This document shows positions 668-41,781 of a DNA stretch of 64,000 nucleotides, one piece after another. Origin of the DNA: Cristatella mucedo (taxonomy: Eukaryota > Bryozoa > Phylactolaemata > Cristatellidae). Position 1 is the first letter of the stretch. Every line of letters begins with the position of its first letter. The stretch lies in contig WPIO01000061.1 of NCBI GenBank assembly GCA_009760855.2, positions 759,501 through 823,500 on the forward strand, read 5' to 3'. The notes beneath the pieces are model-generated. The model was not told the origin of the DNA, did no database searches, and was given only the letters and a program-made list of their open reading frames with translations. The translations under genes were made by a program, and so were the position numbers.

Positions 668-760
668 CTGTTGCAATGTGAGTGGAGGGCCGTCAGTGTC
701 CCGCAGCCGAACGAAGAGCAGGGGCGGTCGATACTGACAAGGGTCAGGGCCACACAGGTT
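668..760 (-). CDS. PNLDC1: PNLDC1 exon 18 (last exon in window)
   Basis: Residues 429-459. Contains [19 protein letters not shown], close to 'NFSGPDYPSIRPPILILSV'. Acceptor is ATCGTATTACAG; donor is CAACAG|GTAATC, so further exons lie beyond the left edge. I found no convincing later exon in 1-667. Confidence 0.9.

Positions 761-41781: not shown

Follow-up and report, generated by a model that had tools for sequence, protein, structure and literature searches.

A probable PNLDC1-type exoribonuclease gene of 21 small exons spread over about 43 kb in the bryozoan Cristatella mucedo

PNLDC1 carries a C-terminal transmembrane segment and, to our knowledge, is without the R3H domain of PARN. One report describes a DEDD motif within its CAF1 domain (PMC11449332). 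According to two reports, PNLDC1 requires TDRKH and trims the 3' ends of piRNAs in mice and silkworm, and TDRKH is a mitochondrial transmembrane protein that recruits it (PMC11449332, PMC5836094). The mouse gene, Pnldc1, has at least nine exons (PMC5635004).

A gene with similarity to this enzyme is present in a 64,000-nucleotide stretch of the Cristatella mucedo genome (hereafter the window). The initial annotation had described it as 18 exons of 40-133 bp that join in phase into 459 codons. A reconstruction from the raw sequence, made without that exon list, arrived at a minus-strand model with the same end points (41781 to 668), exon count, exon sizes, and codons, for a total of 1377 nt. 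All 17 introns inside the window are of the GT-AG type, and the reading frame passes from exon to exon in phase, uninterrupted by any stop codon. The coding part occupies 1377 of 41,114 bp, leaving 96.7% intron between 668 and 41781, in agreement with the 97% given earlier. Two exonuclease motifs were recognized in a scan of the window, and each of them is on the minus strand.

The evidence for individual exons differs in kind. A provisional human PNLDC1 sequence, not taken from a database record, was used as a tblastn query, serving as a lead only, and it reached 12 of the 18 exons amid numerous chance matches, from which they were selected by order and strand. The remaining six (exons 9, 10, 11, and 14, together with 4 and 16) came from phase-constrained splice-site scans. 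Exons 4, 9, 11, and 16 were partly judgment calls among ranked candidates, and 9, 11, and 16 were not top-ranked and were picked by phase and fit. An independent chain guided solely by mouse PARN placed 18 rows on the window, four of which were wrong. Seven model exons have identical limits in this chain: exon 2 (38146..38197), which encodes the catalytic residues D29 and E31, exon 7 (26395..26489), exon 11 (14639..14699), exon 12 (13897..13966), which encodes GHNMLTD with the catalytic D276, exon 13 (11981..12066), exon 14 (8692..8824), which at 133 bp is the longest, and exon 18 (668..760), the last within the window. Seven more are overlapped by it, namely exon 1 (41703..41781), which starts at the ATG, exon 3 (35907..35980), exon 5 (27222..27297), exon 6 (26634..26681), exon 8 (20508..20608), exon 15 (8511..8564), which encodes HEAGYDA with H369 and D374, and exon 17 (2012..2111).

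The four exons that the mouse PARN chain did not recover are based on the provisional PNLDC1 sequence, phase, and splice sites. Exon 4 (32230..32269), the shortest at 40 bp, was the top candidate, and its placement depended chiefly on phase, on its splice sites, and on its length. Exon 9 (20251..20336) was the second-ranked candidate, exon 10 (15417..15502) was found by splice-site scan, and exon 16 (5940..5982) was a fourth-ranked candidate taken for its acceptor and fit. For exon 17, a GTATCT donor was also considered, but it would have required an additional 27-bp micro-exon, for which there was no convincing candidate. Setting the donor at 2012 (GTATGT) makes the match continuous and gives 459 codons.

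The earlier gene model is confirmed for the part inside the window, but its 459 codons are not the whole protein. Three further minus-strand exons (exons 19-21) lie beyond the window edge in the adjoining DNA to the left (locus L009), at window coordinates -405..-493, -925..-1023, and -1124..-1202, and they close the frame with a stop codon to give 21 exons, 1644 nt, and 547 amino acids. An alternative acceptor for exon 20 broke the frame, which was restored by the acceptor at -925. The full model has GT-AG introns throughout and an uninterrupted frame between its ATG and its stop codon, and it spans 42,984 bp (about 43 kb), of which 3.8% is coding. Its 20 introns have a median length of 1540.5 bp, with 12 exceeding 1 kb and the longest reaching 5786 bp. 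Hydrophobicity over 17 residues is highest at positions 521-537 of the 547-residue protein, with a mean of 1.78 versus 1.56 for the next separate internal stretch, a modest excess in a scan by the Kyte-Doolittle scale only.

Both Pfam and PDB searches place the protein in the CAF1/PARN family. The 459-residue portion matches Pfam CAF1 (PF04857) at 1.8e-84 over profile positions 1-320 of 320, and thus a chance origin of the model is excluded. As had been claimed, the DEDDh set of five catalytic residues is complete (those named above with exons 2, 12, and 15). A PDB search at E values up to 1 returned two sequences, both PARN, at about 1e-46, and a separate PDB search with a 23-residue piece gave no match. 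Pfam searches of the protein reported no R3H domain at E values up to 10, in runs without a PARN positive control, and a weak trace of the RNA_bind domain (E 0.076) lies below the cut-off.

When the full protein was searched against the genome (572 Mb, 688 contigs), 20 matches were obtained, 19 of them on C570 at the window gene itself and one weak match at the TOE1-like gene on C430; this search did not pick up the PARN-like genes of the same genome and therefore excludes close copies only. These matches include no other close copy, and the 21 open exons retain their splice sites and all five catalytic residues. That the locus is a decaying copy, a reading for which no supporting point was found, is therefore exceedingly improbable.

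Which member of the family is represented is a harder question. Pfam CAF1 also matches contigs C430, C486, and C614. Contig C430 holds a gene that we take, from a sequence motif, to be TOE1-like, and C486 holds two PARN-like copies. The latter lie within C486:2850001-2950000, where some 70 kb separate their first exons; several of their exons are nearly identical, and they represent either a recent duplication or uncollapsed alleles. The PARN-like protein used in the tree and in the intron comparison was assembled from a mouse PARN chain of 14 rows, with three doubtful rows left out and one piece added. In a five-sequence tree, this protein and mouse PARN group at 0.99 (FastTree) and 100 (IQ-TREE), with the window gene outside. 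Because the PARN-like gene on C486 is the one that groups with mouse PARN, the window gene is not the PARN orthologue of this genome. The only PNLDC1 sequence in the tree and in the identity comparisons is the provisional human one; FastTree pairs the window gene with it at only 0.366, and IQ-TREE instead joins it to the PARN pair at 47.

Pairwise identities hardly discriminate among PNLDC1, PARN, and TOE1-like sequences. The window protein has 34.7% identity with the provisional PNLDC1 across 294 shared columns, as against 33.0% with mouse PARN and 31.0% with the PARN-like protein of its own genome, and its highest pairwise value, 36.5%, is with the TOE1-like pieces over 192 chosen columns. 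These similar values, the weak pairing with PNLDC1 in the tree, and the fact that the solved relatives are PARN only might be taken to mean that the window gene is an orthologue of PARN or TOE1, or a divergent duplicate of either. Such an origin is nonetheless unlikely, given that the genome carries separate genes of both kinds and that mouse PARN is 43.9% identical to the PARN-like protein over the same 294 columns, compared with the 31.0% seen for the window gene. Furthermore, the protein has a hydrophobic C-terminal segment, a trait of PNLDC1. The window gene is thus very probably PNLDC1, which is the best assignment even though the five-sequence tree does not resolve it. The original PNLDC1-like designation is supported by the CAF1 domain, the DEDDh residues, the separate PARN-like genes, and the hydrophobic segment near the C-terminus. 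The case for orthology draws less on the tree, which is weak, than on this segment and on the existence of other genes for PARN and TOE1.

Small exons, distributed across about 25 kb, are likewise a feature of the PARN-like gene on C486, and its junctions give some indication of the age of the split structure. When 11 of them were compared with the window gene, five fell within three columns of a window intron and six had none near. At intron 5 of the window gene, the PARN-like junction coincides in both place and phase (after 'CQ'); at intron 4 the phase agrees and the place is equivalent within one column, and at intron 11 the phase agrees at a distance of two columns. The junctions near introns 10 and 12 differ in phase. 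Two intron positions are therefore common to the two genes, which suggests that part of the splitting is old, predating the separation of both genes and hence the transposon insertions.

Those insertions were a central element of the initial annotation, which counted at least 30 transposon pieces in the introns and none in an exon. Both statements are about right. Using sequence matching to 120 kb from three other contigs as a proxy for repeats, 29 merged repeat intervals totaling 12,134 bp were found within 668-41781. By this measure, repeats make up 30.5% of the intron sequence and 21.0% of the 22 kb upstream of the gene, and they cover none of the 1377 exon bases. Recognizable remnants include a hAT-like transposase in intron 7, antisense to the gene (21407..23413, plus strand), with matches to zf-C2H2_12 (2.6e-7) and Dimer_Tnp_hAT (7.4e-5) in separate open reading frames. 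In the same intron is an antisense LINE reverse transcriptase (RT) remnant (24859..25864, plus strand; RVT_1 1.4e-7). A search for RT pieces located three clustered LINE remnants in intron 4 (28653..30627; minus, plus, and minus), four in introns 15 and 16 (3990..8024; 3990-4589 minus, 6110-6464 plus, 6882-7367 minus, and 7854-8024 plus), an antisense one in intron 9 (18542..19192, plus), and a sense one in intron 3 (33619..34241, minus). Overall, the introns hold 10 RT pieces, five sense and five antisense, and thus show no strand bias.

Two smaller repeats are situated close to exons. One is a dispersed SINE-like repeat of 93 bp (8839-8931), which aligned 31 times to 120 kb from other contigs and at 19 further places within the window. 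Its end lies 15 positions upstream of the acceptor of exon 14, and the 3' splice region therefore adjoins the repeat. A 33-bp minisatellite (14010-14128; 3.6 copies, 98% matches) lies 44 positions upstream of exon 12.

No support emerged for the claim of a gene that is especially scattered among transposons. When databases of an equal 100 kb were taken from other contigs, in six draws each, the repeat proxy was 0.319 for the gene, 0.266 for the upstream part, and 0.028-0.637 (median 0.194) for 20 other loci, seven of which were repeat-richer than the gene and 13 poorer. These 20 loci are not a random sample: four are neighbors on the same contig (among them L009 with exons 19-21), 12 were chosen for CAF1-family hits, and four are arbitrary. 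Three of the arbitrary loci gave 0.57-0.64 and the fourth 0.16, and two of the four are on contigs under 310 kb. The gene is somewhat repeat-richer than the typical locus examined, yet inside their range. Similarly, RT pieces occur at 2.43 per 10 kb in the gene versus 1.50 in the 20 other loci (27 in 180 kb), an excess that is not significant (Poisson P 0.096) and that was obtained with RT queries taken from this window. Most probably, the intronic remnants are insertions of the ordinary background kind, removed by splicing.

It might be proposed instead that the intronic transposon copies make the pre-mRNA a target or source of piRNAs and thereby regulate this piRNA factor. LINE pieces are found in both orientations, the SINE-like repeat lies near the exon 14 acceptor, and the repeat proxy is above the median, all of which could be read in favor of such regulation. 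The idea is nevertheless very improbable in view of the seven repeat-richer loci and the even division of RT pieces between strands. Also, the PIWI gene on C550 offers one further point against it, as its PIWI domain fits within 1.36 kb. Piwi-domain exons gave 20 matches on five contigs; the C550 piece has 12 PDB matches at E values up to 0.001, all named Piwi, and on the other contigs the Piwi-domain exons extend across roughly 4 to 8 kb. In the part encoding the PIWI domain, short introns are therefore seen in at least one piRNA gene. A more specific version, in which antisense LINE copies fixed in the introns let piRNAs target the pre-mRNA so that the trimmer level follows the piRNA level, is less probable still. 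Since these introns do not stand out from the other stretches examined, the presence of transposons in them does not in itself amount to evidence of feedback between piRNAs and this pre-mRNA, which is speculation.

Several other features were recorded along the way. Searches of the window with Rfam models and for tRNAs found nothing. A 208-bp inverted repeat (62006-62213 and 63220-63427) has arms that are 99.5% identical and about 1 kb apart. A CUB-domain open reading frame (2.4e-8) on the plus strand at 61237-61716 is probably an exon of a neighboring gene. Elsewhere, a COX1-like stretch with six TGA codons (C166:4375626-4376390, locus L034), on a contig of more than 4.3 Mb, is probably a nuclear copy of mitochondrial DNA.

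Taken as a whole, the locus is highly likely to be a complete gene, the sole copy found, that encodes a 3'-5' exoribonuclease of PNLDC1 type within the PARN family; its product would act as a piRNA trimmer, and its introns most likely carry background insertions. By analogy with its family, the enzyme would trim the 3' ends of PIWI-bound pre-piRNAs. Trimming would presumably take place at the mitochondrial surface, where the predicted partner is Papi/TDRKH, and the enzyme's own hydrophobic C-terminal segment perhaps contributes to anchoring. The window gene is an ordinary animal gene. It documents the complete exon-intron structure of a probable PNLDC1-type trimmer in an invertebrate whose genome has retained PARN-like and TOE1-like genes as well.

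Each of the three related systems shares features with the window gene. PNLDC1/Trimmer of silkworm and mouse has in common with it the CAF1 domain with DEDD residues (PMC11449332), and the hydrophobic C-terminal segment of the window protein may correspond to the C-terminal segment of PNLDC1. Identity to the provisional human sequence is limited to the 34.7% given above. PARN shares the CAF1 domain, the catalytic residues, the weak RNA_bind trace, an intron 5 of matching place and phase, and an intron 4 that is equivalent within one column, whereas the genes that group with mouse PARN are separate ones in this genome. TOE1, a CAF1-family deadenylase, is likewise related through the CAF1 family and the identity to the TOE1-like pieces over the chosen columns, but it differs in being represented by its own gene on C430.
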